64,000 nt of DNA from Culicoidibacter larvae (GTDB lineage Bacteria; Bacillota_I; Bacilli_A; Culicoidibacterales; Culicoidibacteraceae), in the NCBI RefSeq assembly GCF_005771635.1, contig NZ_VBWP01000001.1, positions 310,001 to 374,000 of the forward strand, in the 5' to 3' direction. The notes beneath the pieces are model-generated. The model saw nothing but the letters and a program-made list of their open reading frames with translations, was not told the origin of the DNA and searched no databases. Below, one piece after another: positions 1 through 32,102 of this stretch. Numbering within the stretch: the stretch's first letter is position 1; every line of letters begins with the position of its first letter. The position numbers and the translations under genes were made by a program.

Positions 1-2
1 GC

Positions 3-557
3 AAGGAGTTCTTTGGACCGGCAATGGTTTTAGGTGGAACAATCAAAACTAAATATAATGAAGCAGTTCAGTATGCAAGAACACATCGTCAAGATAAGTT
101 TTATAGAAATGGTAATAATACAAATGGGCCAGACAATAAGCCCGAACCAAAGGATCCACCGAATAAACCACCAAGTAAGCCAAAGGGTGCTACGCTTTCT
201 AAAACTCCAAGTAGAGCTGAATTTAGAAAGAATAAAGGTAAACTTGTTGCCGGCGCAGCAGCAACGGCTAAAAATGCAAGAAACACGGTTCAAGCAGGTA
301 ATGCAAAAGCGAAAGCAGCTACTAGTGCGGTGAGTGCTGCAGCAAATAAAAAGAACAGCGTGAAGACAGATAAACCACGAAAACCGAGAACCTTACCACC
401 AATGGCTAAGGTAACCCCAAAAGAAAACATTCGACCACGTAGTGTGGTAACTGATAGTTTACTGTCAAAACCAACTCCTGCGAAACCATTGTATTACACC
501 GAAAATGGTGGCACTGATAAAAAATATGTCAATAACAAAAAAGGTGATCAGTCATGA
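3..557 (+). CDS. C-terminal tail of a conjugative-transfer membrane protein (partial, start outside window)
   Basis: The reading frame is open to the left edge of the window (in-frame residues KEFFGPA precede the first ATG at 24), so this is probably the end of a longer protein. What is visible is a hydrophilic tail rich in Lys, Pro and Ala (the PEPKDPPNKPPSKPK stretch, then Ala/Lys repeats) with no membrane segment or enzyme motif. Such basic tails end VirB6/TrbL-type channel subunits of Gram-positive conjugation systems, and the M23 hydrolase gene starts inside its stop codon (ATGA overlap), which fits a transfer operon. The family assignment is inference. An independent small basic protein starting at 24 is the alternative. 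Confidence 0.45.
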   Translation, partial: KEFFGPAMVLGGTIKTKYNEAVQYARTHRQDKFYRNGNNTNGPDNKPEPKDPPNKPPSKPKGATLSKTPSRAEFRKNKGKLVAGAAATAKNARNTVQAGNAKAKAATSAVSAAANKKNSVKTDKPRKPRTLPPMAKVTPKENIRPRSVVTDSLLSKPTPAKPLYYTENGGTDKKYVNNKKGDQS

Positions 558-1180
558 GTGAGCGTTCGGAATATAGACGGGTCGCTGCAAAGAAGGCAAC
601 AAATAAAGTAGTAAAAAAAGTCGCGTACGGCTGTTTGGGGAGTGTGCTAAGTTTGCCGGTGCTGCTTGTATTGTTAATTGTGGTGATTGCTGCCGCTGCT
701 TTTTCTGGTGGCAGCAGCGATACACCTGACGGTAGCGATGTGGTTGCCAGTCAATCCGGATTCATCCAGCCGATTGGTGGCGTGATGACTGAACGATATG
801 GAAATGTAGAAAACCCCTTCGGTCCGGGTGGTCGATTTCACGCTGGAATGGATATTGGGTGTAATAAAGATGATCCAATTAGAGCGGCTGCTGATGGCAT
901 GGTCGATCGTGCTGATAGTGGTGGTTTTTATAATGGTGGTTGGGGTAATTATATTATCATCGGACATGGTAACAATTTAAAGACCGGGTATGCCCATCTC
1001 AATACAGTCGGAGTTACTTTAGGTCAACAAGTCAAGCAAGGTCAGGTTATTGGCTATTGCGGGACAACCGGTGCCAGTACGGCGCCACATTTACATATAG
1101 AAGTGTATTCAAATGGAACGAGAATTGATCCAGAACCATATTTTCCAAAGTATGAACGAAGTTCAATTGTGAGTCCGTAA
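554..1180 (+). CDS. Membrane-anchored M23 (LytM-type) peptidoglycan endopeptidase of the transfer system
   Basis: A 208-residue protein with a basic N-terminus, one membrane anchor at about residues 31-50 and an extracellular M23 domain. The zinc-site residues are visible: H96 and D100 (HAGMD), H148 (GYAHLN) and the HLH pair at H179/H181. M23 enzymes cut peptide cross-links in peptidoglycan; in conjugation operons they open the wall locally for the mating channel. It overlaps the preceding gene by 4 nt and lies upstream of the coupling-type ATPase. The single anchor and lack of a cleavable signal suggest it stays at the membrane beside the channel. Confidence 0.85.
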   Translation: MSERSEYRRVAAKKATNKVVKKVAYGCLGSVLSLPVLLVLLIVVIAAAAFSGGSSDTPDGSDVVASQSGFIQPIGGVMTERYGNVENPFGPGGRFHAGMDIGCNKDDPIRAAADGMVDRADSGGFYNGGWGNYIIIGHGNNLKTGYAHLNTVGVTLGQQVKQGQVIGYCGTTGASTAPHLHIEVYSNGTRIDPEPYFPKYERSSIVSP

Positions 1181-1201
1181 TTATGAAAGGAGCAAAAATG
1201 T

Positions 1202-1576
1202 ATGGAGTATAGATATATTAATTTAACAGACCATGATATACGCATTGCTGATGGGGGCACGGATGTAGTTATACCGCCATCAGGAATGATAGCCAGAATA
1301 AAGAGTAAAGAACGCCGGTTAATTGGTGTTCATTCAGGCATTAAACAGTACTTACTTGGTGGTCGGCAAATAGAATATCTGCCAGCGCCAGTTGATGGAA
1401 CTATCTATATCGTTTCGAAAGTAGTTCTATCAGCATTAAATGGCCGCAGGAAAGATGTTTATGCCCCGGAACGTATTAAGCGTAAAGGTGGAAGAGTAGT
1501 TAGTGCCAGCGGATTGGTTCAGTTTGAGCGTGTAAAAAAACAAGGTATGCCAATATCAGGAGGTGAAGGGCGGTGA
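1202..1576 (+). CDS. Small conserved mobile-element protein, function unknown
   Basis: A 124-residue soluble protein. It begins with an NLTDHDI motif, followed by a PPSG turn and later IYIVS. This pattern recalls small hypothetical proteins of phages and plasmids that start NLTPH and carry a PPSG turn. No catalytic residues, membrane segment or nucleic-acid-binding motif is evident; the C-terminal half is basic. The start at 1202 is supported by the AAAGGAG just upstream. It sits inside the transfer operon and its stop overlaps the GTG start of the next gene. Role unknown. Confidence 0.6.
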   Translation: MEYRYINLTDHDIRIADGGTDVVIPPSGMIARIKSKERRLIGVHSGIKQYLLGGRQIEYLPAPVDGTIYIVSKVVLSALNGRRKDVYAPERIKRKGGRVVSASGLVQFERVKKQGMPISGGEGR

Positions 1577-2103
1577 GCAATAAAAAAATATTTGTCGCTG
1601 TTTTACTAATATTAAGCTTATCGATTCTAGCGAATGTATATCTAGTTATGACTCGAGGTGTTGATCCAGGAGAACTTAGTGACCGTGCAACGTTACAGGA
1701 ACAAATAAATGAGCTGCAGCAACAACTTGATGATAAAAATGCGACTACAACAACAAATGATGCTATTCAAGTTCGTGATGGAATTGCGGCCGCAAAAGAT
1801 TTTGTGTATGCCTATTATGGCTATTCTAATTATGATGAGCATCAGGAACGATTGAAGCGGATTAGTAATGTGAGTCCAAATGTACAGGATCGAATTAATG
1901 CGGAACTCGCGTTAAAAGATGTTGGTGTGAGCGAACTCAATATTATTCGTGCAAGCGCTGAACCACTCAGTGAAACGAAGTTTCGTGTCTATATTCAGAT
2001 TCATTTTTTGATGGATTCACCGGTTCCGGTTGTGAGCGAAGCGTGGGTTGATGTTACGTATGATGGCAGCATTTGGCAGATTGCCGATTTTGGACTTAGT
2101 TAG
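1573..2103 (+). CDS. Single-pass membrane protein of the transfer operon (VirB8/TcpC-like layout)
   Basis: A 176-residue protein starting with GTG at 1573, 4 nt inside the previous gene. One membrane segment (about residues 7-25) is followed by a short coiled-coil stretch rich in Gln (about 40-58) and an extracellular domain of about 110 residues ending in a beta-rich segment. The anchor, short coil and NTF2-sized outer domain resemble VirB8/TcpC-class scaffold proteins of Gram-positive conjugation machines, but I see no diagnostic motif, so the function is inferred from layout and position only. Confidence 0.5.
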   Translation: MSNKKIFVAVLLILSLSILANVYLVMTRGVDPGELSDRATLQEQINELQQQLDDKNATTTTNDAIQVRDGIAAAKDFVYAYYGYSNYDEHQERLKRISNVSPNVQDRINAELALKDVGVSELNIIRASAEPLSETKFRVYIQIHFLMDSPVPVVSEAWVDVTYDGSIWQIADFGLS

Positions 2104-2114
2104 GAGAAATATGT

Positions 2115-3197
2115 ATGAATGATGCAAATGAAGAACTAAAAGAAATCGTTAGAAGTATTGGAGCTTTTTGGATCCTACTTATTCCGGCCGTATTATTTGG
2201 AATTTGGTGGTTTTTACCTGCAGATTTTAAGTCGAATATTGAAGGAAGAATTCCAATTGAAACAATAACATCAATCCTTGAAACATTGATCTACGTAATT
2301 GTTGTTCTTTTAATTGTAGGAATAGTGTTATTAGTCATTCGTGCAATCTTAATTGGTGTTCTAGAGAAGAAACGGATGCGATATTATCTGTGGTTACCAC
2401 ACGCTGATGATAGTGTGAGTTTAACAAGCCTTACAGCGATTACAAAAGATTTATACTCGCAGAAGCGAATGTGGTATGAACGTTTACTAAAAGGGAAAGA
2501 ACAGTTTATCTTAATCATTCATAATGATTCAGACAACATTGTCCGTTTCTATGTTGGTATGCCGCTTGATCGCCGCCGTAATGTACTAACAAGCTTGCGT
2601 GGTCTTTACCGGCTCTCAGAGTTTTATGAAGTAGATCCAGCAAAAGTATATCCGAATGTTAAAACGTATAAGCGGCAGCTGCATACAAATCGTTTGACAA
2701 GCTTGCAGCGGAATTATCAGTTTGATCCAGTAGGAGCGCTTATTGATAAGATGGAAGATGATTCATGGATTGAAATCCGTGTAACTCCAGATAAGAGCGG
2801 CGTTTTAGAGCGAGCAGTAAAGCTTGAAGACAAGAAACAGAAGTTTGATCAGAAGCAAGCACGAAAGAATCAAAATGAATCTGGTCAAGTTGATGGTGTT
2901 TCAATGGATGATGCCAGAAGACTTGTTAAACGTTTGCGACCTGCAGCTGGTGACGTGGAGATGGTATTTGATGTTGTTATCCAGATTGAGAGCAAACGCA
3001 AATTAGTGGCGACTGACCTTGGTATGACAATTACCTCGCTTACTCAACATAGTGCAAATAGCTTAAAGCTTAAACGAACACCTTGGTACCAGCATGTTAT
3101 TACTCAAGCACCATTTTTGATTGGAAAAACATTCAAAATGACGACCAGTGAACTGGCTGCCTTTTTCCATTTGCCAGACATAGATGAAAATGAATAG
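2115..3197 (+). CDS. Two-TM membrane subunit preceding the coupling ATPase
   Basis: A 360-residue protein with two N-terminal membrane segments (about residues 15-33 and 55-77) and a cytoplasmic region of about 280 residues. Its end carries TTSELAAFFHLPD, close to a short signature seen before the ATP-binding domain in some long HerA/TraG-type pumps. It may therefore be the separated N-terminal half of such a pump, with the ATPase encoded at 3574. A charged helix rich in Lys and Gln lies at about residues 236-255. Similarity is recognised by pattern only. It overlaps no catalytic motif and should not be an enzyme by itself. Confidence 0.5.
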   Translation: MNDANEELKEIVRSIGAFWILLIPAVLFGIWWFLPADFKSNIEGRIPIETITSILETLIYVIVVLLIVGIVLLVIRAILIGVLEKKRMRYYLWLPHADDSVSLTSLTAITKDLYSQKRMWYERLLKGKEQFILIIHNDSDNIVRFYVGMPLDRRRNVLTSLRGLYRLSEFYEVDPAKVYPNVKTYKRQLHTNRLTSLQRNYQFDPVGALIDKMEDDSWIEIRVTPDKSGVLERAVKLEDKKQKFDQKQARKNQNESGQVDGVSMDDARRLVKRLRPAAGDVEMVFDVVIQIESKRKLVATDLGMTITSLTQHSANSLKLKRTPWYQHVITQAPFLIGKTFKMTTSELAAFFHLPDIDENE

Positions 3198-3210
3198 GAG
3201 TGTGGAATTC

Positions 3211-3471
3211 ATGCAGAAGAAGATGTTTTTAACTAAACTTGAGCTTGAAGTCTTTGGCGCACTGCAGTGGGATCAATGTTTGAAAAATGAGGAAATTGCT
3301 GAGCGCATTAAGATGAAAAAGCAAAGTGTTGATAATGCAGTTGGACACTTGTACAAATATGGATTAATCAAGGATACATATAATTATCGGCGAGGACAGG
3401 AGCGAATCATTAAAGTAATCGGTGTCGTAGATTTCACAAGCGGTGCTGTTCTTGAGACGTTCCTAGATTAG
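3211..3471 (+). CDS. Small winged-helix DNA-binding protein
   Basis: An 86-residue protein consisting essentially of one helix-turn-helix domain. The segment from LELEVFGALQWDQ through ERIKMKKQSVDNAVGHLYKYGLI has the spacing of a winged helix: helix, recognition helix, then wing. I chose the ATG at 3211 because AGGAG at 3196-3200 lies 10 nt upstream; an earlier in-frame ATG at 3184 lies inside the previous gene. Its position between two transfer genes suggests a regulator of the operon, but its target is unknown. Confidence 0.65.
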   Translation: MQKKMFLTKLELEVFGALQWDQCLKNEEIAERIKMKKQSVDNAVGHLYKYGLIKDTYNYRRGQERIIKVIGVVDFTSGAVLETFLD

Positions 3472-3475
3472 TGCT

Positions 3476-3561
3476 TTTATTTTGAGTGAGAATGGAGCTA
3501 AGAGAAAAGCCTCTAATTAATCCGCTTTAAATATGGAAACTTTATTTTGAATGAGAATAGA
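3476..3561 (+). repeat. Duplicated leader segment around the ATPase ribosome-binding site
   Basis: Two 21-nt direct copies beginning TTTATTTTGA lie at 3476-3496 and 3541-3561 and differ at two positions. The second copy leads directly into the AAAGGGTGA ribosome-binding region of the ATPase gene. This looks like a local duplication of an upstream translation leader. Confidence 0.5.
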
Positions 3562-3573
3562 AAGGGTGAAAAA

Positions 3574-5208
3574 ATGGAGTTAAACAATATAAAACGCAAA
3601 GACCGAATTATCCATTTAATGAAGGGGCAAGGAATGATTCCAAACTACCTATTAAATAGTGGTATTAGTTTTGGAGTCTTGTATCATCCGGTTGTTGTCG
3701 ATCGTGAGTTACTGATTGATGAAAATGTCTTAACAACACATGTCTATGTTGAAGGCATCACCGGTAGTGGTAAGACCAGTCTTGTGTATGTGGTGCAGGA
3801 TGGTATTTTCATCAAAAAGTTAGAAGATCCAAACGCAACCGGATCGATGTATATAGATCCATTAACCAATGGTGCGAATGGATTGATTACCAGAGTGCTG
3901 CACGCTGCGAAAGAAAAAGGATTAAGGGCCACGGATTTGGACTATTTCCATTACATGAAATTTGCGGATGATGTACCTCTTGGTTACAAAGCGGATCATA
4001 TACCTGGACTTAATCTGCTTTATTATGAGCCGGGTGACGACCTGCAGGAACTGATAGATTCAACAATGAGCATTATTGATACCGCCATTCCAACTTCACC
4101 AGGTGGAGCAGTGCGAATGGAAAAATTCCTAAAAAATACATTCGGTTTGTTGCTGCTGGATAATAGACTGCGAAGTGAAGAGGGCGACTTACAACATACT
4201 ATTCTTGATGCCGCAAAAGCAATTAAGAGTAAAGCTTTCAGAAGAGCAATTCTTGAACGAATAGAACCACTTGGATTAGATGCCAAGCCATTTATTGACT
4301 TCTGGGCGGAGTATGAAGAGACCGATATTAAACCGGAGACGCTGGATGCGATTGAAACCCGGTTGAATATTTTTGCGGTCAGTCCGGTGTTGCGCCGGGT
4401 ATTCGGTCAGGCTTCGATGATCCCCTTAACGAAGTGGCTTGATGAAGGGCACATTGTGTATGTTGATCTTGGGCGCTTATCAGAGACCGCGAAGAAACTC
4501 ATCAGCTGCAGTTTAACTGAACGTTGTTACCGGGCCGGTAAGAACAAGCGCAAGAATAAAAATTTATACATTCTGATGATTGATGAAGTGGCTCAAGCAC
4601 AGGTGCCATGCATTCCTGATATCACGATGGATGGTCGGCAATTTGGATTGGGACTCTTTCCGTTGAATCAGTATCATACTCAGCTCAATGATAAAATTCG
4701 AGTCGCACTACTCAATAATACCGGCACTCAGTGCTTTGGAAAATTAAGTGGATCCGTTGCGAAAGAAGCCAGCAATGCCAGTGGAAACCGGTTTAGTGCG
4801 GCTCAACTTGAAGCGATGCCGACCAGTGTTTTTGGGTTAGTGACGCAAGTCAAAATGAATGGTGAAATGGTTAAAATGAATACCATGCTGAAAAGTCCAC
4901 CGCCATACATTTATACCAAGCAAGGCAAGATTGCCGATTACAAAAATGAGCTTGAAATGCGCCAAGCACGCATCGATGCTTTTGTTGCGATCAAGCCATT
5001 GATTGAACGTGACTTCCAATCTGTCGCTGAAATTGATGCTCAGATTAAAGCATCATTCGGTATGGTTGATGAAAGTAAATTAGATGGCGATGGCATTGCG
5101 ATGATGCAACAAGAAGCCCGGATAGCGGAGCATGAAAATGTTCAAAGTTTTGACATGATAGAGGCTGCAAAAAGTGCCGGATTATCAGTTGTTCCAGACT
5201 TCAATTAA
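3574..5208 (+). CDS. HerA/TraG-like DNA-transfer ATPase (coupling-type)
   Basis: A 544-residue P-loop ATPase. Walker A is GITGSGKTS near residue 60 and Walker B is YILMIDEVAQ near residue 335. The pattern fits the HerA/FtsK/TraG group: a long domain, an aspartate-ended Walker B, and a later TQCFGKLSG segment. Such ATPases pump single- or double-stranded DNA through the conjugation channel. The usual membrane segments are missing here but are present in the protein just upstream, suggesting a split pump. The start at 3574 is chosen for the AAAGGGTGA upstream; a TTG at 3547 is possible but has no ribosome-binding site. Confidence 0.75.
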   Translation: MELNNIKRKDRIIHLMKGQGMIPNYLLNSGISFGVLYHPVVVDRELLIDENVLTTHVYVEGITGSGKTSLVYVVQDGIFIKKLEDPNATGSMYIDPLTNGANGLITRVLHAAKEKGLRATDLDYFHYMKFADDVPLGYKADHIPGLNLLYYEPGDDLQELIDSTMSIIDTAIPTSPGGAVRMEKFLKNTFGLLLLDNRLRSEEGDLQHTILDAAKAIKSKAFRRAILERIEPLGLDAKPFIDFWAEYEETDIKPETLDAIETRLNIFAVSPVLRRVFGQASMIPLTKWLDEGHIVYVDLGRLSETAKKLISCSLTERCYRAGKNKRKNKNLYILMIDEVAQAQVPCIPDITMDGRQFGLGLFPLNQYHTQLNDKIRVALLNNTGTQCFGKLSGSVAKEASNASGNRFSAAQLEAMPTSVFGLVTQVKMNGEMVKMNTMLKSPPPYIYTKQGKIADYKNELEMRQARIDAFVAIKPLIERDFQSVAEIDAQIKASFGMVDESKLDGDGIAMMQQEARIAEHENVQSFDMIEAAKSAGLSVVPDFN

Positions 5209-5781
5209 TGGTTCAGAATTGAGGTGAATTAGCAACCGAAATTGATTGATTATGTGATTGAAATGGTCTTTTTAACCTAATAATTACAATCAAACAGTTA
5301 ATCAACTAGTTTGCCGACGTAAATCCTTATGGAATATAGGCTCGTAGTTTTGGTGTTTTCGCAGATATCTGGATATTGAGGCCTGTTTTTAAGGCTCTAT
5401 TCTTGAATACAAAATTCAACTATAAATAGTAACCAAAAATACAACAAATAAAACACTATTTATATGTCAAAAAAACGGTACTTCATTCTAATAAATTCCA
5501 TACCATATCCAAATACTCACTTTACTCAATTCTCTATTTTCAATCAGTCAATAAACTATTCGTATTTTTGAAGAACATCAATACAAGTAGTCTATTGCAA
5601 ACACCAAAACTAAACAGTTTACATCTAACTGTTAATCAGAAATCTGATACTTTCTTTTAAAAGAAACAAACCTCAGTCAATCCTCTCCGCCGGTGTTGCT
5701 GCTCCCGTGCTTGGTTGTTAAGGGCGCGGCCGGCGAGGAGATGCGACATGTGAGGTGGGCCAAATGAAGGGAGTGAAGCTC
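5209..5781 (+). other. Noncoding stretch dense in inverted repeats: candidate oriT/oriV
   Basis: No convincing gene is present in about 570 nt, yet several dyads cluster at its right end: AACAGTT/AACTGTT (5613-5633, 7-nt spacer), ATCAGA/TCTGAT (5635-5648), a perfect 16-nt palindrome (5651-5666), and a GC-rich two-tier stem with arms at 5684-5693 and 5730-5741 enclosing a second stem (5701-5706 with 5722-5727). The left part is AT-rich. The position directly upstream of two replication-relaxation-like genes suggests a transfer or replication origin. The function is inference; the inverted repeats are seen directly. Confidence 0.5.
5755..5766 (+). repeat. Single 12-nt copy of the parS iteron core
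   Basis: GTGGGCCAAATG here matches 12 consecutive bases of the 26-bp iteron array at 7809-7984, about 2 kb away. It overlaps the ribosome-binding region of the first relaxase-like gene, so a partition protein bound here could affect its expression. It lacks the second palindrome arm. Confidence 0.5.
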
Positions 5782-6561
5782 ATGCAGCGACCAATAACAA
5801 TCGTCCTCAATGAAGAAGACATTCGGCTCTTCTTTGCGATTGATGATTTTAAATATTTGGACCGAGTGTATATTGATGGAGTCATTTATGCCGATCGCTC
5901 AAAGCAATATATAACAAACAGACTTTGGAAATTAGTGCGGAGCGGTTATTTGGACCGTATACCGAAAGTTGGTGTCCTGGATTGGAATTATATAAACACA
6001 GAGCAAACAATCCGCATGTTGGATTATTTAGAACGTGGTGATGAGCTTGATGCGATCCGACAACTCATCTATGCAGATGAACCCCAACCACAGATGCAGC
6101 ATCAACTTGAATTGAGTTATATTGTTGCAGCCATTCAAAATAGATTCCCGGATGCTATTTATATGAATGAGCGGATCGCAACATTTAAATACGGTGTCAA
6201 GAAGCATGAGGTGATCAGACCGGACGGACAAGTTCTTATTCCGATAGCTAATAATTGTTATATCAGTTATTGGCTGGAATTAGAACGAGCAACTACCGGG
6301 CAGAAAGGAAATATCTATAAAATTAGAAGATACAATTCCTTCCTGCAGCAGTCATGCTTTTTAGACCAATATTTTTATCCCGGAGAAGTAGTTGAGTTTC
6401 GTTGCTTATATATTGGAGCACGTCGTGTAGATATTGAACGTCTAGGACGATATGCGACAAGTGGACAACCACAATTTACAATTGAATACATGAACATGGA
6501 AGAAGGAACGTTGCCGATTCATTTTGGAGCGTTTGAGAGGAGGTTGCATCTATGCGAATAA
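5782..6561 (+). CDS. Replication-relaxation family protein, copy 1
   Basis: A 259-residue protein. An N-terminal winged-helix region (LNEEDIRLFFAIDDFKYLDR, then RLWKLVRSGYLDRI) is followed by a domain with VIRPDGQVLIP and YWLELERAT, the pattern of the Replic_Relax family found on Bacillota plasmids and integrative elements. These proteins are linked with plasmid replication or nicking, though the biochemistry is poorly defined. The ATG at 5782 follows GAAGGGAG at a normal distance; earlier in-frame starts at 5755 and 5764 lie in the noncoding leader. A paralogue follows with a 10-nt overlap. Confidence 0.7.
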   Translation: MQRPITIVLNEEDIRLFFAIDDFKYLDRVYIDGVIYADRSKQYITNRLWKLVRSGYLDRIPKVGVLDWNYINTEQTIRMLDYLERGDELDAIRQLIYADEPQPQMQHQLELSYIVAAIQNRFPDAIYMNERIATFKYGVKKHEVIRPDGQVLIPIANNCYISYWLELERATTGQKGNIYKIRRYNSFLQQSCFLDQYFYPGEVVEFRCLYIGARRVDIERLGRYATSGQPQFTIEYMNMEEGTLPIHFGAFERRLHLCE

Positions 6562-7370
6562 CCGAACAAGATGAAAAGCTATTTATGTCGCTCTATCAAT
6601 TTGAATACCTTGATCTTGGGTTTATTCAAAAATATGTGTACATTGATATGCATCTTACATATATCAACAAGCGGATTAAGATGTTGACGATTACTGGATA
6701 TGTTGAAGCGATTGCTTGTTGGCATAAAAGTCCGGTAAGCAATCAGAACTATAAACAAGTATACACGATTGGTGTTACCGGTTATGACTGGTTATGCAGC
6801 ACGATTGGTGAAGGGACACAATTGAAACCAATTGCGAAAGACCAAGCAACAATTACGCGCATGATTGAGATTGCGCACATGGTATCTCGTTATCAACAAA
6901 GTGGTCGTGGAATTATCTATATGAATGCTGAACGTGCTGTGTTCCAATATGGGCTCAATCAACGCGGGCAGATACGACCAGCAGGTCAATTACTGGTGCC
7001 GGTTCTATTTAATAATCAATCAATGTATATTAGTTATTGGATTGAACTTGAACGAACACGCGGAAGTATTGAGAATTTAGCATTAAATCTAAAACGATAT
7101 AATCAGTTCCTGCATTTTAAAGCGTATGAAAAACAACTCATTTATGATCGGCCGGTTTTTGCATTCAGAGTATTATCAATTGCACGTGATGAAACATCAA
7201 TGTATCAACAGTTACATAGGACAAAAGATCTAAAACTTGATGTTCCAATTTATTTTGCGATAAAGCAAGATGTTTTTGTAAATCCACTTGGACATATTTA
7301 TAATACCTTTGATGAAAAGGGCGTCGACTTATTTGGTAATTCTAAAAACAAAGGAGGTGCAATTATATGA
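6552..7370 (+). CDS. Replication-relaxation family protein, copy 2
   Basis: A 272-residue paralogue of the preceding protein with the same order of elements: an N-terminal HTH (TEQDEKLFMSLYQFEYLDLGF), IYMNAERAVFQYG, IRPAGQLLVP (Gly-Gln where copy 1 has the acidic RPDGQ) and SYWIELERTR. The Asp of RPDG is therefore replaced by Ala in this copy, which may mean the two have diverged in activity or act as a heterodimer. It overlaps the first gene by 10 nt, and the next gene begins inside its TGA stop, so the three are translationally coupled. Confidence 0.68.
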   Translation: MRITEQDEKLFMSLYQFEYLDLGFIQKYVYIDMHLTYINKRIKMLTITGYVEAIACWHKSPVSNQNYKQVYTIGVTGYDWLCSTIGEGTQLKPIAKDQATITRMIEIAHMVSRYQQSGRGIIYMNAERAVFQYGLNQRGQIRPAGQLLVPVLFNNQSMYISYWIELERTRGSIENLALNLKRYNQFLHFKAYEKQLIYDRPVFAFRVLSIARDETSMYQQLHRTKDLKLDVPIYFAIKQDVFVNPLGHIYNTFDEKGVDLFGNSKNKGGAII

Positions 7371-7783
7371 TGGTTTTTAATAGCGTGCAGCGATTGGCAC
7401 GAATGGTTATCGGCAGTGTCGCGAGCATCTTCCCCCGCCCTATCCGGCGACCAATTTATTTTATGTTAGGAATTTGGGGAACGTATGCGATGCTGTGGGT
7501 GATCTATTTTTTGTTATCGAGCGCGATACCAGGAGCAACGGTATTCTTAGAGGTTCTGCAGCTGATACTTACAACGATGAAAAATTTCTTCTTATTGGGA
7601 TATACACTAGCAAGAGAATATCTTGGACTGAATGAGTTGCTAGCTTGGATTGTTTACTTTGTTCTTTTATTTGGAATTAGTTATATATTGAGTGTGGGGC
7701 TTGGTGTGAATAGTCGAACAATTCGCGGACTTGTGATACTTGGACTTATTGGGCTTTACATATATCTGTATTACTTACAGTAA
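7367..7783 (+). CDS. Small multi-pass membrane protein of the mobile element
   Basis: A 138-residue very hydrophobic protein with about three membrane segments (residues about 24-46, 83-104 and 112-137) and a short basic N-terminus. A strong AAAGGAGGTG lies just upstream of the overlapping ATGATG start. No family motif was recognised. Its coupling to the relaxase-like genes and its position before the partition locus suggest a membrane component of the element, but nothing more can be said from sequence. Confidence 0.6.
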   Translation: MMVFNSVQRLARMVIGSVASIFPRPIRRPIYFMLGIWGTYAMLWVIYFLLSSAIPGATVFLEVLQLILTTMKNFFLLGYTLAREYLGLNELLAWIVYFVLLFGISYILSVGLGVNSRTIRGLVILGLIGLYIYLYYLQ

Positions 7784-7808
7784 TGCGCTGTGTGGTAAAC
7801 ACCAGCGC

Positions 7809-7984
7809 AAAAGTGGGCCAAATGGCCCGGCAGGAAAAGTGGGCCAAATGGCCCGGCAGGAAAAGTGGGCCAAATGGCCCGGCAGGAAAAGTGGGCCAAA
7901 TGGCCCGGCAGGAAAAGTGGGCCAAATGGCCCGGCAGGAAAAGTGGGCCAAATGGCCCGGCAGGAAAAGTGGGCCAAATGGCCC
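7809..7984 (+). repeat. 26-bp palindromic iteron array (candidate parS centromere)
   Basis: Six exact head-to-tail copies of a 26-bp unit plus a seventh partial copy of 20 bp. Each contains the dyad GGGCCA-AA-TGGCCC. The array ends 19 nt before the parA start, where its last bases run into the GGAAGGAG ribosome-binding site. Iterons upstream of parAB operons are typical centromere or repressor-binding sites, so binding by the ParB-like protein or ParA is likely. The ORFs that read through the array merely translate the repeat in rotating frames. There are no spacers, so this is not a CRISPR. Confidence 0.85.
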
Positions 7985-8003
7985 ACTGGAAGGAGTGTAA
8001 AAA

Positions 8004-8783
8004 ATGAAACAAACTAAAACAATAGCGCTGTTAAATCAAAAAGGCGGTGTGAATAAAACCACAGCTGCCATCATTTTAGCAACTTATCTTTCAAATAGAG
8101 GTAATAAAGTTGGCTTTGTTGGTGCTGATGCACAACTGCATGCGACTGGAACGTTGCTAAAAGACGAGTATGTTGAATATGGCTTGTATGACTTAATAAG
8201 TGGAACCAAGATGTTTGATGAAGTAGTTGTCCATATCAATGAAAACTTAGATTTTATTCCAGAAACATTGATGCTTTCAACAGCGGATATTCTGCTTTCG
8301 CAAAAGATGGGTGGGGAAATGTACCTTGCACAACTCTTTGATGATTTGTTTTCTGCTAAAGACTATGACTACATCATTTTCGATTGCCCACCGGCAATTA
8401 ATAAAATTACTAGCGGTATTATTTTGTATGCACAATACTTTGTCATTCCAGTATCTCCATCGAAATACTCGCAAAAAGGGTTAGAAATTCTATTAGAGTA
8501 CTTAGCTCAAGTCTTTCATATCTCGAAGAAAGAACAGAAGAAGTTCTTTCGGGTTTTAAAAACCTTTCATAATCCGAATGAAATCGCCAGCCAAAAGATT
8601 AGTCGATATTTGGATGAAAAGCGCTTTAATATGTTCCATACATATATTTCAAAAGCAACTGAATTTGATACGCTCACCTTTACCAATGATGTAATTATCG
8701 AGGCGAAGCCAAATCATCCGGTCGCTAAAGAATATGTGTTACTTATGGATGAGGTTCTAGAGTGGATAAGTGATAATAATTAG
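8004..8783 (+). CDS. parA: ParA-family partition ATPase
   Basis: A 259-residue ParA/Soj-type ATPase that moves or positions plasmid DNA on the nucleoid. The deviant Walker A is KGGVNKTT at residues 13-20, with the signature Lys13 and Lys18 present but Asn17 in place of the usual Gly. The A-prime region reads GADAQLHAT instead of the more usual DPQ form, and Walker B is YIIFDCPPA. It lacks an N-terminal DNA-binding extension, so it is of the short type. GGAAGGAG precedes the ATG. It forms an operon with the ParB gene 12 nt downstream, and the iteron array upstream completes a standard partition locus. Confidence 0.85.
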   Translation: MKQTKTIALLNQKGGVNKTTAAIILATYLSNRGNKVGFVGADAQLHATGTLLKDEYVEYGLYDLISGTKMFDEVVVHINENLDFIPETLMLSTADILLSQKMGGEMYLAQLFDDLFSAKDYDYIIFDCPPAINKITSGIILYAQYFVIPVSPSKYSQKGLEILLEYLAQVFHISKKEQKKFFRVLKTFHNPNEIASQKISRYLDEKRFNMFHTYISKATEFDTLTFTNDVIIEAKPNHPVAKEYVLLMDEVLEWISDNN

Positions 8784-8795
8784 GAGGTTCCGAAC

Positions 8796-9551
8796 ATGTC
8801 GAACAAAGATCATGATATTTACGAACAATTACGAGAAGTAAATCGCCCGTCAAGTGGGCAGAGCGCTCGTGTAGCCGAGTTGATGCTCGGGAATCCAGAA
8901 GAAATGCAGCTGACAACCATCAAACTTTCGGTGCTAAACCCTAGTAAATATAACCGTATGCCAATTGTTAAAGTTGAGGAGCTGATGGAACAAATTAAGG
9001 CTGACGGCTTGCAGAATCCAATACATGTGCGCTTTATTAGTGATGATAATATTATCAATATTGCTGGCCATCGCCGAGCGGAAGCATATAGACGCTTGGG
9101 ATATGACGAAATTCCTGCTTTTATTCGTAGGGATATCAAAACAGATTTGGACGAACAAAGAGCGGTCGCAATCAATAATGTGCAACGCGAGGAGACGAAA
9201 GAAATCGTCAAACAAAAAGTTTTGGAGTGGGGTGATATTTACGAAATTGAAAAGAGTCGAGGAAATATTCCTGCCGGAATCCGAAAGCGTGTGTGGATTG
9301 CGCAGTTTACTAATTTAAGTGAACGGAGTGTCCAGCGGTACTTAACTGAATATGAGGCGATTGAAGGTGACGTTATTGAAAAACCAGAAATTGATCCATT
9401 AATGGCTGCTGAGCAAAAAGTCATTAAACAAGCACAATCGTTTAGCAAACATTTAGCCAAATATGCGAAACTGACGGATAAGCGACAGAGTGCTGCAGTT
9501 ATTCAAGAACTTGAAAAACTAATTAACATAGTCAAAGATAACATGAAATAA
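8796..9551 (+). CDS. parB: ParB-family centromere-binding protein
   Basis: A 251-residue ParB/Spo0J-like protein. The N-terminal ParB/sulfiredoxin-like domain includes PSKYNRMPIV and a GHRRAEAYRRLG box (the usual GERR has His here), a CTP-binding region in the family. A central helix-turn-helix (FTNLSERSVQRYLTEYEAI) and a helical C-terminus follow. It should bind the iteron array upstream of parA and recruit ParA. A strong TTAGGAGG site precedes the ATG, and a perfect terminator follows the stop. Confidence 0.83.
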   Translation: MSNKDHDIYEQLREVNRPSSGQSARVAELMLGNPEEMQLTTIKLSVLNPSKYNRMPIVKVEELMEQIKADGLQNPIHVRFISDDNIINIAGHRRAEAYRRLGYDEIPAFIRRDIKTDLDEQRAVAINNVQREETKEIVKQKVLEWGDIYEIEKSRGNIPAGIRKRVWIAQFTNLSERSVQRYLTEYEAIEGDVIEKPEIDPLMAAEQKVIKQAQSFSKHLAKYAKLTDKRQSAAVIQELEKLINIVKDNMK

Positions 9552-9555
9552 CTGA

Positions 9556-9590
9556 AAAAGCCGAGCAACAATTTTTGCTCGGCTTTTTTT
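9556..9590 (+). terminator. Rho-independent terminator after parB
   Basis: Stem GCCGAGCAA/TTGCTCGGC with a 6-nt loop and a run of seven T. The flanking A-run makes it potentially bidirectional. Confidence 0.9.
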
Positions 9591-9704
9591 GTTACCGCTC
9601 TAATTCTCTTATTTCGCTATATTTATGGTTAACGTGATAAGTTTCTTGCTAAATTGTGAGAATAATATTATAGTTAATTTAGATTAGAAGAAGGAAGTGT
9701 GTAG

Positions 9705-10400
9705 ATGTTATTAGAAGAGCCGATTGCTTTTTTGAAATTCTTAAATATTATATTGTTTGGGAGTGTTTTTTGTTTTTACATTTTGTCATCAATAATAAGT
9801 TACTGGTTTCGAAAAAAAAGAAAATTGAAAGTTAATAAAAGTTTTAGGTATGACAATGGGAAACCTACTCTTGAATTCAGAGTACCCTTATATTACTCTA
9901 CACCAATGGAAGATGAGGTTTGGTCAACGTTTGAACAGGATCAGCTATTTACTTATAAAAATAATGATTATATTATTGCTCAAATCGTTGAAGAGCAAAA
10001 CAAAAAAACTATTGCAAACTGCATTGTTTTTGCATTTATATGTAAAAAAATTGTTGTGTCACTTGTTCCAAAACATCAACTGAGTAAGGCAGAAGTACAG
10101 AATGGGGACAGATATATTACACATGGTGATGGTTCACCAATTATCAAAGACTCTAAAAATGTTACTATTAATAATAATGCTTTAAATAGCCTAAAAGAGT
10201 TGAATGATTTTTTCTTAAATGCTAATTTGCAAGATGTTCCGGATAAATCGTTTATTCTGGAGTGTATATCATTAATTAAGAATAATCATAATTTAGGAGA
10301 TAAGAAAACAGATTTTATTATTACTCTAGGTAATTACGCTAAAACAGTGCCTGCAATTGCTACTGCTATTGCAAGTGTTATCAGTTTACTAACTAACTAA
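9705..10400 (+). CDS. Unrecognised membrane protein with a central GDGSPIIKDSKNV segment
   Basis: A 231-residue protein not recognised as a known family. An N-terminal membrane segment (about residues 10-31) is followed by a basic stop-transfer, a mostly soluble middle, and a second hydrophobic stretch at the very C-terminus (about 212-230). The middle holds GDGSPIIKDSKNVTINNN, a pattern reminiscent of beta-solenoid-like linkers found between effector and sensor parts of defence proteins. AAGGAAG precedes the start. It is followed after 63 nt by a HEPN-like protein with its own AAGGAGAG site; the pair may form one unit. Confidence 0.5.
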   Translation: MLLEEPIAFLKFLNIILFGSVFCFYILSSIISYWFRKKRKLKVNKSFRYDNGKPTLEFRVPLYYSTPMEDEVWSTFEQDQLFTYKNNDYIIAQIVEEQNKKTIANCIVFAFICKKIVVSLVPKHQLSKAEVQNGDRYITHGDGSPIIKDSKNVTINNNALNSLKELNDFFLNANLQDVPDKSFILECISLIKNNHNLGDKKTDFIITLGNYAKTVPAIATAIASVISLLTN

Positions 10401-10463
10401 ATTAATTGAGGTTACATATTATTTTTACTGTTGTAAATATATTATTTTTTAAGGAGAGTATAG

Positions 10464-11255
10464 ATGAATGATAAAGAATTAAATGATTTAAAAGTGCTAC
10501 TTGAAAATTTGGTTCAAATTCCACCATACATTTTATCGGATGAACAGCAAGCACTAATTAGTAAATTTTTTAGTATTGTTCGTCCCGATAGTGTTTTTCC
10601 TAGATCATCAAATGCGCTCGTTAGTATTATGGGTAAGAAAATTTATGTTGATATATATCACCCTGTGATTTGTAGAGTTGAGACCTTTCATGTATTGAGT
10701 GTTGATGATTACCCTAAAAGTATTACTTTTACGGCTAATGATAGCTATTCTATTGTGGTATTCTTTGATAAGGATTTTCAAAAAATGGGTCAAACACCAT
10801 CTCATTCACACTTCAAAGTTATTGATGTAGATATCAAAAAAATAAATAAATATTTAGGAGATGATTCTAAATATTTATATAAAGCAGATTTATCTTCAGA
10901 TAATAACTTGTATATAGGTGCGTTTGTATATTTAAGAAGAATATTTGAAAATATTATTGATTCAAAACTTAAAGAGTTATCAAATAAAGGTAAATCAACA
11001 TCAGATAATCGTATGAAAGAGAAAGTATCTTTTTTAGTCAATGAACATCAGTTAGATTCAACATTTAAAGAACAGGGATTTGCAAAAATGTACTCTCTAT
11101 TGAGTGATGCTGTTCATAATCTTTCGGAAGCGGAGTGTAAAGAAAACTTTCTTATTCTTCGTGAAGCAATAATGATGATTATTAAGGATCAGATTGCTCA
11201 TGAACAACAACAACAAAGAAAAAAGAATCTGCAAGCTACCTTAAACTCTTTGTGA
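10464..11255 (+). CDS. Unrecognised protein with HEPN/DUF4145-like C-terminal helical domain
   Basis: A 263-residue soluble protein. The C-terminal half (YIGAFVYLRRIFENIIDSKL, then KMYSLLSDAVHNLSEAECKENFLILREAI) has the helical spacing of HEPN-type domains of the DUF4145 group, which often occur in phage-defence and toxin-antitoxin proteins. A canonical R-x4-6-H ribonuclease motif is not clear, so catalytic activity cannot be claimed. The N-terminal half looks like a separate alpha/beta domain. AAGGAGAG precedes the ATG. With the preceding membrane protein it may form a two-gene accessory unit. Confidence 0.5.
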   Translation: MNDKELNDLKVLLENLVQIPPYILSDEQQALISKFFSIVRPDSVFPRSSNALVSIMGKKIYVDIYHPVICRVETFHVLSVDDYPKSITFTANDSYSIVVFFDKDFQKMGQTPSHSHFKVIDVDIKKINKYLGDDSKYLYKADLSSDNNLYIGAFVYLRRIFENIIDSKLKELSNKGKSTSDNRMKEKVSFLVNEHQLDSTFKEQGFAKMYSLLSDAVHNLSEAECKENFLILREAIMMIIKDQIAHEQQQQRKKNLQATLNSL

Positions 11256-13418: not shown

Positions 13419-13982
13419 ATGGAAACGACAAAATATTTAGATGATGAACTAAAAAATTTTATAGTTAATGTAGGATGGACTCATAAAATACAGATATGTC
13501 AATCAGATATTTATATTGAGTACACCAAAAAGCTAAAGTGGGTAAAGATTGTATTAACATCTCTAACCTCTGTCGGGCTCGGAAGTTTTCTGTTGAAAAT
13601 TTCTTCTGATTTTCAAAACATTTCAATGATTTTAACATTTGCCTTGTCTTTGTCTATGACAATAGTGGTTGCATTAGATAAGGAAAATGATTATAAAGAA
13701 TTAGCGAATCAAAATAAATTAGCTGCAGATAAATTTTTAGAAATCAGAGAGAAGGCTTTAGAACTGCTATATGAACTAAACATGGGCAAGGATGCTGATG
13801 TTATTCAACAAGAATTTAAAGAATTAAAAGAGGTTAGAAATCAAGAAAACTCGATGTTACCACATACTTCTTTGGAGGCTGTAGAAGTTGCTAGTATAAA
13901 AATAAAAGATAAAAGAGATAATGATTACTCAGAAGATTATGAGTACTTCATTCCTAAAAATTTAAGAAATTTAGAGGATTGA
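13419..13982 (+). CDS. SLATT-type two-TM effector of a CBASS system
   Basis: A 187-residue protein with an N-terminal helical region, two adjacent membrane segments (about residues 45-62 and 67-85), and a long C-terminal helix (DKENDYKELANQNKLAADKFLEIREKALELLYEL). This is the layout of SLATT domains, 2-TM effectors predicted to form membrane pores when activated by a cyclic nucleotide. The gene directly downstream encodes a CD-NTase, which supports the assignment. GGAGG lies just before the ATG. Its stop lies 2 nt before the most likely start of the next gene, so the two are coupled. Confidence 0.75.
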   Translation: METTKYLDDELKNFIVNVGWTHKIQICQSDIYIEYTKKLKWVKIVLTSLTSVGLGSFLLKISSDFQNISMILTFALSLSMTIVVALDKENDYKELANQNKLAADKFLEIREKALELLYELNMGKDADVIQQEFKELKEVRNQENSMLPHTSLEAVEVASIKIKDKRDNDYSEDYEYFIPKNLRNLED

Positions 13983-13984
13983 TT

Positions 13985-15211
13985 ATGATTATAAACTATG
14001 CTAAGACTTTGCAGCGGTCAAAGGAAGAATCGGAAAAATGGCAGGCAAGGATAACGAGGATAAATAATAAGTTATGTGACGAATATTATCCAGAAAGAGA
14101 GAATCACACAATAATTGTTGGATCCGTTGGGCGTGGTACTGCAGTATCCAATACTAGTGATTATGATGTGATTTTCAAATTGCCCTATTCAGTTTTTAAG
14201 AAGTTTGATAGTTATGAGTCAAATGGACAATCACAATTGCTTCAAGAAATTAGAAACATAATTATGGATTTACATCCAAAAACAGATATTAAAGGAGATG
14301 GGCAGGTAGTTTCAATTGAATATAAAGATGGGGTTATTGAATTGGTTCCTGGATTTGAACAAACTGATGGTAGTTATAAGTATCCAGATAGTAAAGATGG
14401 AGGGAGTTGGAAAATTACAAAACCAATTCCTGAAATTGAAGAATCGAACAAGCAATCAAAGAATTCAACACAGTACTTTAATTATTTGTGTTACCTAATA
14501 CGCCAGTGGAAAAATTATATGGGATTTTCTTTCAAGGGATTACTTATTGACACGTTGATTGCTAAATATTTGGATGAAGAAACTTATGCGAATAAAACAG
14601 AACTAAAACTGTTGGAAGATTGTTTTGTTTTCTTTTCAAAGGAGAATAAAGAGCAGGCATTTTGGTATGCATTGGGTAGCAATCAAAAAATATATAATCG
14701 AGATGAAGGTTTATTTGTAACTAAAGCAAAAAAGATTGTAAAAAAATTTGAAGATTGTACAGAAGAAGAAATTTTGAAAGAAGTATTTGGATATAAGCAA
14801 AGTGAAAGTAAATCTGCAAATGAAGAATTCATAGAGGACAAGTTTATAGTAGATATTCAATACAATTTGATAATAGATTGTGATGTATTTCAAGACGGAT
14901 TTAGAGGAATGAAGCTTTCGAAGTATATTAATAGTAAGTTTAGATTGGGGCGAGGGAAGACGTTGAATTTCAGCGTTGTTAGTACCAATATCCCAACCAA
15001 TTTATCAATAAAATATTTTTGGAAGGTTAGGAATGTCGGAAGAGAGGCCGTTGGTAAAGAACGCGGTCAAATATTTTTAGGAGAATTTAGTTTAACTGAA
15101 CATACGAATTTTAATGGTAATCACTATGTGGAGTGTTATGCAGTTCATGAGGATATCGTAATAGCACGAAGTAAAATAAAAGTCCCTATTGATGTAGTGA
15201 AAGGAATATAA
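13985..15211 (+). CDS. CD-NTase (SMODS-type) with C-terminal AGS-C sensor-like domain, CBASS
   Basis: A 408-residue cyclic-oligonucleotide synthase. The nucleotidyltransferase core shows GSVGRGT (Gly46, Ser47) followed by SDYD, giving metal ligands D59 and D61, and VIELVP, where the third acidic position is Glu119 rather than the common Asp. GSWKITKP and QYFNYLCYLIRQWK continue the family pattern. From about residue 280 the sequence resembles the AGS-C ligand-sensing domain (a beta-sandwich ending near VPIDVV). In CBASS this enzyme senses phage and makes a cyclic nucleotide that opens the SLATT effector. The ATG at 13985 follows AGAGG; a TTG at 13979 is possible. No Cap2/Cap3 genes adjoin, so this is a minimal type I-like locus. 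Confidence 0.8.
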   Translation: MIINYAKTLQRSKEESEKWQARITRINNKLCDEYYPERENHTIIVGSVGRGTAVSNTSDYDVIFKLPYSVFKKFDSYESNGQSQLLQEIRNIIMDLHPKTDIKGDGQVVSIEYKDGVIELVPGFEQTDGSYKYPDSKDGGSWKITKPIPEIEESNKQSKNSTQYFNYLCYLIRQWKNYMGFSFKGLLIDTLIAKYLDEETYANKTELKLLEDCFVFFSKENKEQAFWYALGSNQKIYNRDEGLFVTKAKKIVKKFEDCTEEEILKEVFGYKQSESKSANEEFIEDKFIVDIQYNLIIDCDVFQDGFRGMKLSKYINSKFRLGRGKTLNFSVVSTNIPTNLSIKYFWKVRNVGREAVGKERGQIFLGEFSLTEHTNFNGNHYVECYAVHEDIVIARSKIKVPIDVVKGI

Positions 15212-15336: not shown

Positions 15337-16086
15337 ATGTTAGATAACTTAAAGATTGGCGATTGTATCCGTATCGATGGCAAACATCTTTTAGTGTATG
15401 ACGATGCAACAAAAATAGAAACATATTCAAGTATAGAGAAACATGGCGGCGCTGTTCAGTTGTTGCTGACTGATCCACCATACAATGTAAATTATTCGGG
15501 AACAAAACGGAAGAATCGCCGGCGGATCATAAATGATAATCTTGGCGATCGATATACTGATTTTTTGACGAAGCTATTAAGCAATGCGGAGAGAGTGATG
15601 GAGCCAGGAGCAAGTTATTATGTGTTCATGGCATCGTCATCAATAACAGAACTTTATGCTGCATGCGATGTTGCCGGCTTATATCGCTCAAGTTTGTTGT
15701 TATGAATCAAAAATCATTTTGTATTGTCGTTTGCAGATTACAAAGCGAAGCATGAGTGTATACAGTATGGATGGAAGAAAGGTGCGGCACATAAGTTCTA
15801 TGGGCCTAAAAACGCATCTACAGTGTTTAATTACTCTAAACCAGTAAAATCCCTGTTACACCCGACTATGAAGCCGCTGGAGCTTGTTAAGGAGCTTTTA
15901 CAGCATTCAACACTGAAAGGTGATGTTGTTTTAGATCCCTGTGGAGGAAGTGGCACAACGATGTTGGCGGCTGAAGAGCTTGGTCGCATGTGCTATATGA
16001 TCGAGATTGATCCAGAGTATATAAAATCAATTATAAATCGGTACTTACATTTTTATCCAGATGCCAAGATTGAAATTTTGTTATGA
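15337..16086 (+). pseudogene. DNA methyltransferase (beta-class, N4/N6) interrupted by one in-frame TGA
   Basis: Two open segments in the same frame are separated only by TGA at 15703-15705 (codon 123). Read through, the 249-residue product is a complete amino-MTase: catalytic TDPPYNV at about residues 46-52, then HPTMKP, then the AdoMet loop DPCGGSGTTMLAAE near the C-terminus. That order of motifs is typical of the beta class. The TGA precedes IKNHFVLS, where relatives usually have Trp, so TGG to TGA is the simplest explanation. AGGAGG precedes the ATG. It is probably inactive unless the stop is suppressed. TGA ends other genes here, so it is not a recoded Trp. Confidence 0.8.
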
Positions 16087-16177: not shown

Positions 16178-17056
16178 ATGATGAGTGGATTAGGAAAAGC
16201 CATTATGCAACGACGTATTGCAAAGAAGATGAGCCGCAATCGGCTCGCAGCAGGAATATGTAGTCCAAATGCGGTTCAAAAAATTGAGCTATATGGAACG
16301 ATTCCTAGATTTGATACATTAGCGAAGTTGTTAGCTAAATTAAATTGTTCAATCGATGAAGTGTGGCAAGAAGCCAATGTAGAAAACTATTCTGAATATA
16401 CGACAATTCGGAAAGAGATTGCATATTATAACAAGAAGCATAATTATATACATGTTGAGCATCTAATAAACGGGATAGATCCAGAAATTTATAACTCTTT
16501 GCCGCTCGATGAACAACAATATTTATTATATAATCAAGCAGCGGTTTTACTGAAGGTTCATGGTAAGACAGATGAGGCTTGTACAGTTGCTGAGAATGCT
16601 CTAGAATTGACACTTATAGCTGAAGGAGATCGCTTCTCGGAAAATGAAATGTTATTGATTAATTTGATTACCTCAATTAGGCAAAATGATTATTTTTGGT
16701 ATTTGCTGAAGAAGGCTTATATATATTACTTGAATGATCGAATAAATATTGCAGATAAAACTTATATGACTATTGCTAATGGAATGCTACAGTATTATTT
16801 CAAGAATCAGGAGTGGCAGAAATTGCTCGAGGTCTCAATTGAAACTGAAGAAGATGGCTTAGAAGAAGATATGCTTATGTATGTTACCAATATTTGGTTT
16901 TCGAAGGGTGTTGCTTTATATAAATTAAACAGTTGCGATAAGGGTCGAGAATATATTAAAAATGCAATGGAGCACTGCTTGTTGCTTAAGCAAATGAGGA
17001 ATTATAACTACTTTCAACAGCATCTTGTCAATTTAGGTATAAATATAAAAGAGTAG
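16178..17056 (+). CDS. Rgg/RRNPP-like transcriptional regulator (HTH plus TPR-like repeats)
   Basis: A 292-residue protein with an N-terminal XRE-type helix-turn-helix (GKAIMQRRIAKKMSRNRLAAGICSPNAVQKIELYGTIPRFDTLAKLLAKL, about residues 6-56) and a C-terminal region of about 220 residues made of paired amphipathic helices. This fits the TPR-like peptide-binding domain of Rgg/PlcR/MutR regulators. Such proteins are controlled by short peptides taken up from outside. The gene faces, tail to tail, a 13-codon peptide gene with an excellent ribosome-binding site (17088-17129, minus), a natural candidate ligand. Two ATGs (16178, 16181) are possible starts. Confidence 0.72.
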   Translation: MMSGLGKAIMQRRIAKKMSRNRLAAGICSPNAVQKIELYGTIPRFDTLAKLLAKLNCSIDEVWQEANVENYSEYTTIRKEIAYYNKKHNYIHVEHLINGIDPEIYNSLPLDEQQYLLYNQAAVLLKVHGKTDEACTVAENALELTLIAEGDRFSENEMLLINLITSIRQNDYFWYLLKKAYIYYLNDRINIADKTYMTIANGMLQYYFKNQEWQKLLEVSIETEEDGLEEDMLMYVTNIWFSKGVALYKLNSCDKGREYIKNAMEHCLLLKQMRNYNYFQQHLVNLGINIKE

Positions 17057-17079
17057 CCGGATTTTATATCCGGCTACTC
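17051..17079 (+). terminator. Bidirectional-looking terminator between regulator and peptide gene
   Basis: Stem GAGTAGCCGGAT/ATCCGGCTACTC with a 5-nt loop. It begins inside the end of the regulator gene and lies just beyond the stop of the minus-strand peptide gene, so it may serve both transcripts. Confidence 0.8.
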
Positions 17080-17087
17080 TTACTTTC

Positions 17088-17129
17088 TTATACCCACCAT
17101 TCCATTAATGCAACGATCCACTTGAACAT
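17088..17129 (-). CDS. 13-residue hydrophobic WW peptide, candidate leaderless pheromone
   Basis: Minus-strand micro-ORF encoding MFKWIVALMEWWV. A perfect AGGAGG (17138-17143 on the plus strand as CCTCCT) sits 8 nt before the ATG, a stronger start signal than most genes in the window. One Lys near the start followed by a hydrophobic stretch and a Trp-Trp pair resembles known Rgg ligands, either short hydrophobic peptides or leaderless communication peptides. The convergent placement beside an Rgg-like gene matches known rgg-peptide layouts. No signal sequence is present. Function is inference; the ORF and its ribosome-binding site are seen directly. Confidence 0.6.
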   Translation of the reverse strand: MFKWIVALMEWWV

Positions 17130-17160
17130 TTCGCCCACCTCCTGATCATGATATATTTCA

Positions 17161-17223
17161 ATTGTAGTCCTTTTAAAAAGTTGTATCTATCCAAAATGTA
17201 TGAAAGTTTTAATACATTGTATT
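17161..17223 (-). promoter_or_regulatory. Putative activator-dependent promoter of the WW-peptide gene
   Basis: On the minus strand a TACAAT -10 (complement of 17161-17166) lies about 30 nt before the peptide start without a recognisable -35 at 16-18 nt. Upstream sits the dyad AATAC-ATT-GTATT (17211-17223). A poor -35 plus an upstream dyad is what a regulator-activated promoter would show; the operator role is inferred. Confidence 0.4.
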
Positions 17224-31984: not shown

Positions 31985-32102
31985 TAAACTTTGCTTTGCA
32001 AGGAGTTTATTAATGGAAAGATTGCAAAATTCTTTATTTGATTGGGCTTTATGTATTTAGAGCACATCAAAGAAATAATTTTGAAAGGAGAGAAAAAATT
32101 CT

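Follow-up and report, generated by a model that had tools for sequence, protein, structure and literature searches.

Candidate leaderless peptide-receptor pairs of the RRNPP superfamily in Culicoidibacter larvae

The regulator and the facing micro-ORF

The window, which is the entire 64,000-nucleotide stretch of Culicoidibacter larvae DNA analyzed in this work, carries a regulator gene and a micro-ORF that converge from opposite strands. The following features were assigned to this locus.

16178 to 17056, plus strand: RRNPP-type regulator of 292 amino acids, with a Cro/C1-type HTH at the N-terminus and a C-terminal domain that is all helical
17049 to 17081, no strand assigned: bidirectional terminator, a hairpin of 14 bp with a U-rich tail on either strand, between the converging regulator and micro-ORF
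17088 to 17129, minus strand: micro-ORF of 13 amino acids, MFKWIVALMEWWV, candidate leaderless signal peptide gene
17136 to 17143, minus strand: Shine-Dalgarno (SD) sequence AGGAGGTG, with AGGAGG 8 nt before the ATG of the micro-ORF
17161 to 17189, minus strand: candidate micro-ORF promoter, with a -10 TACAAT (17161-17166), a weak -35 TAGATA (17184-17189) and a 17-nt spacer
17195 to 17218 and 17211 to 17223, no strand assigned: overlapping dyads in the upstream region of the micro-ORF, a possible operator

The micro-ORF reads ATG TTC AAG TGG ATC GTT GCA TTA ATG GAA TGG TGG GTA TAA, and its product, which ends in EWWV, is very hydrophobic (GRAVY of 1.15), aromatic plus aliphatic residues making up 85% of its 13 amino acids. 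The SD match extends over 8 nt, and the gene is of a size that most gene finders would miss. A preliminary description of this DNA had placed the ORF behind an AGGAGG at 8 nt and tail to tail with the regulator; this anatomy proved right, the stop codons of the two genes being 31 nt apart. No adjacent gene in the sense direction was found as a target of the micro-ORF, and since there is no sense gene beyond the terminator, its transcript probably ends there.

The upstream region had been described as having a -10 without a -35. The -10 is present, but a -35 with four of six matches also exists at the normal spacing of 17 nt. The associated argument for an activator-dependent promoter did not hold, as eight promoter-like sites were found in this stretch versus 8.9 expected from shuffles. 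Likewise, the dyad at 17211-17223 (AATACA-T-TGTATT) exists, but the same arm length was obtained in 292 of 1000 shuffles (about 29%). Since neither exceeds chance, the operator dyad and the activator-type promoter were dropped as evidence. A TATAAT-like hexamer is also located 22-26 nt before the ATG of the other convergent micro-ORFs described below, and no operator common to the micro-ORF upstream regions was seen.

The N-terminus of the regulator matches HTH_3 (E 1.2e-8), as expected of an RRNPP protein, and a short peptide gene adjoins it, as is also typical of this superfamily. Alone, the protein had no match at E 0.01 among PDB sequences and none at E 0.1 to either Rgg_C (PF21259) or TIGR01716. 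A profile of six paralogues (the window protein and five others) matched ComR (2.2e-14), PlcR (1.9e-13), Rgg2 (9.5e-11) and PrgX (5.6e-10), with nearly full-length alignments to ComR and PlcR; ComR is thus the best solved relative of this profile, which relates the TPR-like helical C-terminal domain to those of known receptors. Among seven paralogues, three match PF21259 and one TIGR01716. A single-sequence AlphaFold model of the window regulator is all helical but of low confidence (pLDDT of 57); its top fold match in the PDB is Rgg2 (E 7.6e-3, low TM-score), and the model is too weak for fold inference. Of the earlier assignment to an HTH-TPR regulator of the Rgg/RRNPP type, the RRNPP part is therefore sustained by the paralogue profile and the Rgg part is not: matching neither Rgg_C nor TIGR01716, the protein is by sequence a member of the superfamily but not of the Rgg family proper.

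Further pairs in the genome

The genome of C. larvae encodes 12 regulators of the RRNPP superfamily, and six of them adjoin an ORF of 10-16 residues that starts with M[FL] and has a Trp near its C-terminus. The six pairs are as follows.

Window pair: MFKWIVALMEWWV, convergent, with a terminator-like hairpin immediately behind the stop codon of the peptide
C10 pair (L002): MLRFLLLIWIGH, convergent, with a terminator-like hairpin immediately behind the stop codon of the peptide
C2 pair (L003): MLNFLKWISTFAWYSV, convergent, with a terminator-like hairpin immediately behind the stop codon of the peptide, slightly weaker SD AGGGGGTGA
C8 pair: MFWFLIAWFV, convergent, with a terminator-like hairpin immediately behind the stop codon of the peptide
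C18 pair: MLSIFSILVPYIWYWE, convergent, with a terminator-like hairpin immediately behind the stop codon of the peptide
C9 pair: MFGLMPWAWWLE, divergent

In all six peptides, a Trp near the C-terminus precedes another Trp, a Tyr, a Phe or an Ile. The convergent pairs, five of the six, all have a hairpin behind the peptide stop; in the four outside the window this hairpin has 14-19 bp or is a shorter, interrupted stem. The central proposal of the preliminary description, namely, that an RRNPP-type receptor is paired with a translated peptide gene rich in Trp, gains support from similar micro-ORFs at five other receptors, four of them convergent.

In a tree of 16 receptors, all five receptors of convergent pairs fall into one clade of seven, together with L041 and L005. 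L041 flanks the C10 micro-ORF on its other side, so that the MLRFLLLIWIGH gene lies between two receptors, and L005 has no micro-ORF within 330 nt downstream. The receptors L042-L045 have no micro-ORF in their flanks that passes the strict test given below, and they are placed outside the seven-receptor clade, near the C9 receptor. In all, six of the 12 receptors lack their own micro-ORF.

Some of these loci have further features. At L008 (5666-7028), MLRFLLLIWIGH has an RRNPP receptor gene on each side, one in convergent and one in divergent orientation, and a MucBP surface protein is encoded downstream. The receptor with MLSIFSILVPYIWYWE (L012, G000:C18) resides on a plasmid-like contig with a ParA-like gene; about 4.6 kb from MLSIFSILVPYIWYWE, this contig also encodes an ABC transporter and two radical SAM enzymes, which may form a RiPP cluster.

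Different counts were used to judge whether these associations exceed chance. About 25.5 kb of non-coding DNA of this genome contain four ATG-started ORFs of 8-20 amino acids with an SD match of at least 7 nt, and all four adjoin RRNPP-like regulators. A strict test (6-nt SD match, ATG, 8-20 amino acids, within 300 nt on either side of each regulator) identified five micro-ORFs at the 24 flanks of the 12 regulators, all with Trp, versus a dinucleotide-shuffle expectation of 0.89 for any such ORF and 0.12 for those with Trp; as this test was framed after the window ORF had been seen, the other four are its independent part. Trp accounts for 13 of the 73 non-start residues of the six peptides (P about 3e-12 versus the random TGG frequency). 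A genome-wide GGAG-ATGTT-TGGT pattern had 13 forward and 29 reverse sites, versus 16 and 13 for a reversed-pattern control, and the only in-frame Trp micro-ORFs of up to 30 amino acids among the sites checked in sequence were three RRNPP ones and one 27-amino-acid ORF.

A hydrophobic ORF of 27 amino acids, MLDKILEFIWLIFCVFLAFILWILGIF, with the SD AAAGGAGG, was noted upstream of L047 (G000:C4, near 180452), where it adjoins a small HTH-membrane protein; its product resembles a small toxin or a membrane peptide.

Other genomes and known systems

At the thresholds used, no relatives of the window regulator were found in the other genomes of the order, of which four were searched with the window genome included. 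At the E-values used, close relatives were likewise absent from the family, order, class, genome contigs, phages and viral contigs, and these collections contain no close orthologue of the pair. A plasmid search returned only two weak Macrococcus/Macrococcoides matches; no strong-SD small ORF adjoins the pLI0213a receptor, and a 34-amino-acid candidate ORF is located downstream of the pMCCL1 receptor.

The search for micro-ORFs beside relatives of the regulator, which had been put forward as a check, was successful in this genome and also in Turicibacter sp. Nc150P1bin9 (G055), a distant MAG of another family in the class, in which MGWLIGFLVDWWL and MAFLLALIGRDVWWV are encoded divergently from two RRNPP receptors. 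The starts of these two micro-ORFs are ambiguous, since each overlaps a further ATG from which another short ORF can be read. A third receptor of this MAG has the Trp-free MLNFLRDI. The genes downstream of the MGWLIGFLVDWWL micro-ORF encode an FtsX-type permease and a small protein that looks secreted, candidate targets of the kind to be expected. In G024, an ORF of 43 amino acids with a signal-like N-terminus adjoins another RRNPP receptor and ends in ELPWWL. Given these loci in G055 and G024, a C-terminal WW recurs with RRNPP receptors across families, in some cases with a leader and in others without. A literature search found no paper covering both Turicibacter and RRNPP. Two other receptors, L016 and L021 (G439, G428), have a divergent ORF of 31 or 39 amino acids, MFLFCSDFDDLFPRLGGQPSALWNIIISVFF and MFSFVLTHPGPCSGEGSGGLSPPVAAPVFRLLRLIFSLI, with the very strong SDs AAAGGAGGTGA and AAAGGAGGT.

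By profile, PlcR-PapR and PrgX-cCF10 belong to the same receptor superfamily, but their peptides have secretion leaders or longer precursors, unlike those described here. A closer likeness exists to the streptococcal ComR-ComS system (XIP, type II), whose receptor is the best solved match of the paralogue profile. Its precursor is also very short with a C-terminal WW, S. mutans ComS being MFSILTSILMGLDWWSL (PMC5167397), of which the WW motif is required (PMC5131902); MFKWIVALMEWWV, with its C-terminal EWWV, and the C18 peptide MLSIFSILVPYIWYWE are comparable to it. However, comS is located directly downstream of comR (PMC5167397), whereas the window genes are convergent with a terminator between them, and the lineage is distant and the window receptor alone has no PDB match.

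Another similar system is that of the LCP/SIP peptides with RopB-clan receptors, which share the missing leader, the aromatic/aliphatic make-up, the strong RBS and the cytosolic HTH-TPR receptor (PMC10518010); MFKWIVALMEWWV is likewise leaderless, ultra-short and of aromatic/aliphatic make-up, with a strong RBS. LCPs are mostly of 8-10 amino acids and preferably divergent (PMC10518010), whereas the peptides here have 10-16 and are mostly convergent, as is the 13-residue window peptide. Assignment of a receptor to the RopB clan requires at least 25% identity to RopB and a TIGR01716 E-value below 1e-5, and the window protein lacks the TIGR01716 part. The Rgg-SHP systems of group III have the peptide gene convergent to the receptor, as here, but their SHPs overlap the 3' end of rgg (PMC13361665), whereas 31 nt and a terminator intervene in the window, and MFKWIVALMEWWV is Trp-rich and of only 13 residues. 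Most likely, the window pair would work like ComRS or LCP systems, while departing from LCP systems in length, orientation and TIGR01716 membership, from ComRS in gene order and from Rgg-SHP group III in that its genes do not overlap.

So far, leaderless RRNPP signals have come from six families of Bacillales and Lactobacillales, namely, Streptococcaceae, Lactobacillaceae, Enterococcaceae, Carnobacteriaceae, Bacillaceae and Staphylococcaceae (PMC10518010). To these are added six candidate pairs in one genome of a sparsely sampled order and at least two more in a Turicibacter-like MAG. As such micro-ORFs are below the usual gene-calling limits, their receptors would look orphaned, and the data suggest that a simple search for a receptor with a convergent strong-SD ORF and a Trp before the stop would find more. 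The six pairs offer a ready-made set for studying specificity, leaderless export and the role of C-terminal Trp residues.

Proposed signaling and genomic setting

The 13-residue ORF is probably a translated peptide gene whose product, or its C-terminal stretch around EWWV, would bind to the adjacent regulator as ligand; we assign this reading a probability of roughly 0.7. It draws on the gene anatomy, the repeated association, the peptide signature, the terminator layout, the receptor family by profile and the Opp-type binding proteins, and leaderless ComS/LCP-like peptide-receptor signaling pairs are the best reading of these sequences. Against it count the missing close orthologue, the six receptors without their own micro-ORF, the upstream dyad at chance level, the lack of a common operator and of an adjacent sense target, the weaker SD at L003 and the ambiguous starts in the Turicibacter-like MAG. 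The peptide would be made without a Sec or SHP-type leader, may exit the cell or act within it, and in the former case could return through an Opp-type importer; two Opp-type SBP_bac_5 binding proteins are encoded in the genome. It is predicted to dock in the groove of the C-terminal domain of the regulator with its Trp residues as anchors, and the peptide-bound regulator would then switch at the micro-ORF promoter, giving autoinduction, and perhaps also at genes of the surrounding element. Given the five further pairs of the same design, the window pair probably belongs to a family of private chemical signals in this little-studied lineage, about six receptor-peptide pairs that would operate in parallel with differing peptide codes.

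It is much less probable that the peptide binds its receptor mainly inside the producing cell, which would make the pair a positive-feedback or bistable switch and not a secreted quorum signal. The missing leader of MFKWIVALMEWWV fits this, and unprocessed S. mutans ComS activates ComR within cells (PMC6211226); however, leaderless LCPs can act between cells (PMC10518010), and this genome encodes binding proteins of the Opp type. An improbable alternative is that the micro-ORF encodes a membrane peptide or a small hydrophobic toxin and that the regulator represses it: the hydrophobicity of the peptide and the frequency of HTH neighbors in toxin-antitoxin pairs would agree, but 10-16 residues are short for a membrane-spanning toxin, and both the recurring C-terminal Trp signature and the membership of the receptors in the RRNPP superfamily point to ligands. 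Short ORFs are common and a close orthologue for comparison is absent, yet a chance ORF in intergenic DNA is very improbable in view of the SD counts at regulators given above and of a signature repeated at six loci of this genome and two of a MAG of another family. A trp leader-like attenuator peptide, suggested by the tandem TGG codons and the terminator just after the stop, was rejected as scarcely credible, since beyond the terminator there is no gene but that of the regulator, which is encoded on the opposite strand, no leader family reaches the gathering score (Rfam matches near the locus are all far below it) and the peptides of L002 and L004 have no tandem Trp.

The left 16 kb of the window resemble a conjugative-type element. 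Positions 1-11255 are conjugative-element-like, with an M23 peptidase, ParA and ParB, and an AAA_10 ATPase gene is located just upstream of the window (L114:14439-16889). A CBASS-type pair at 13419-15211, consisting of a SLATT_4 two-TM effector and an SMODS/AGS-C oligonucleotide cyclase (CD-NTase), lies just upstream of a methyltransferase gene and the RRNPP pair. The peptide-receptor pair lies at the right end of this region and is followed by an ISLre2-like transposase and by genes that we take, from their translated sequence, to be pgk and tpi. Some LCP systems are located on ICEs or plasmids (PMC10518010), and by analogy with those on ICEs it is plausible that the pair controls the element. 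A wider proposal is tentative and rather unlikely as a whole: the lineage may have evolved at least six parallel leaderless pheromones that share a C-terminal Trp signature and are mostly convergent behind a shared bidirectional terminator, and the window pair may serve the conjugative-type element by linking cell density with transfer or with the neighboring CBASS-type defense.

Interruption of a target by the insertion sequence was considered and set aside, as the transposase region is present in a single copy in the assembly and its ends are therefore not definable. The N6/N4 DNA methyltransferase gene at 15337-16086 is split into two reading frames near 15705-15724 and is probably a pseudogene. 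Finally, an ORF of 15 amino acids, MERLQNSLFDWALCI, with the SD AAGGAG, is located at 32013-32060 of the window, in the gap immediately preceding an elongation-factor-G-like gene (start near 32103); no other strict-SD micro-ORF with Trp was found near a control gene.
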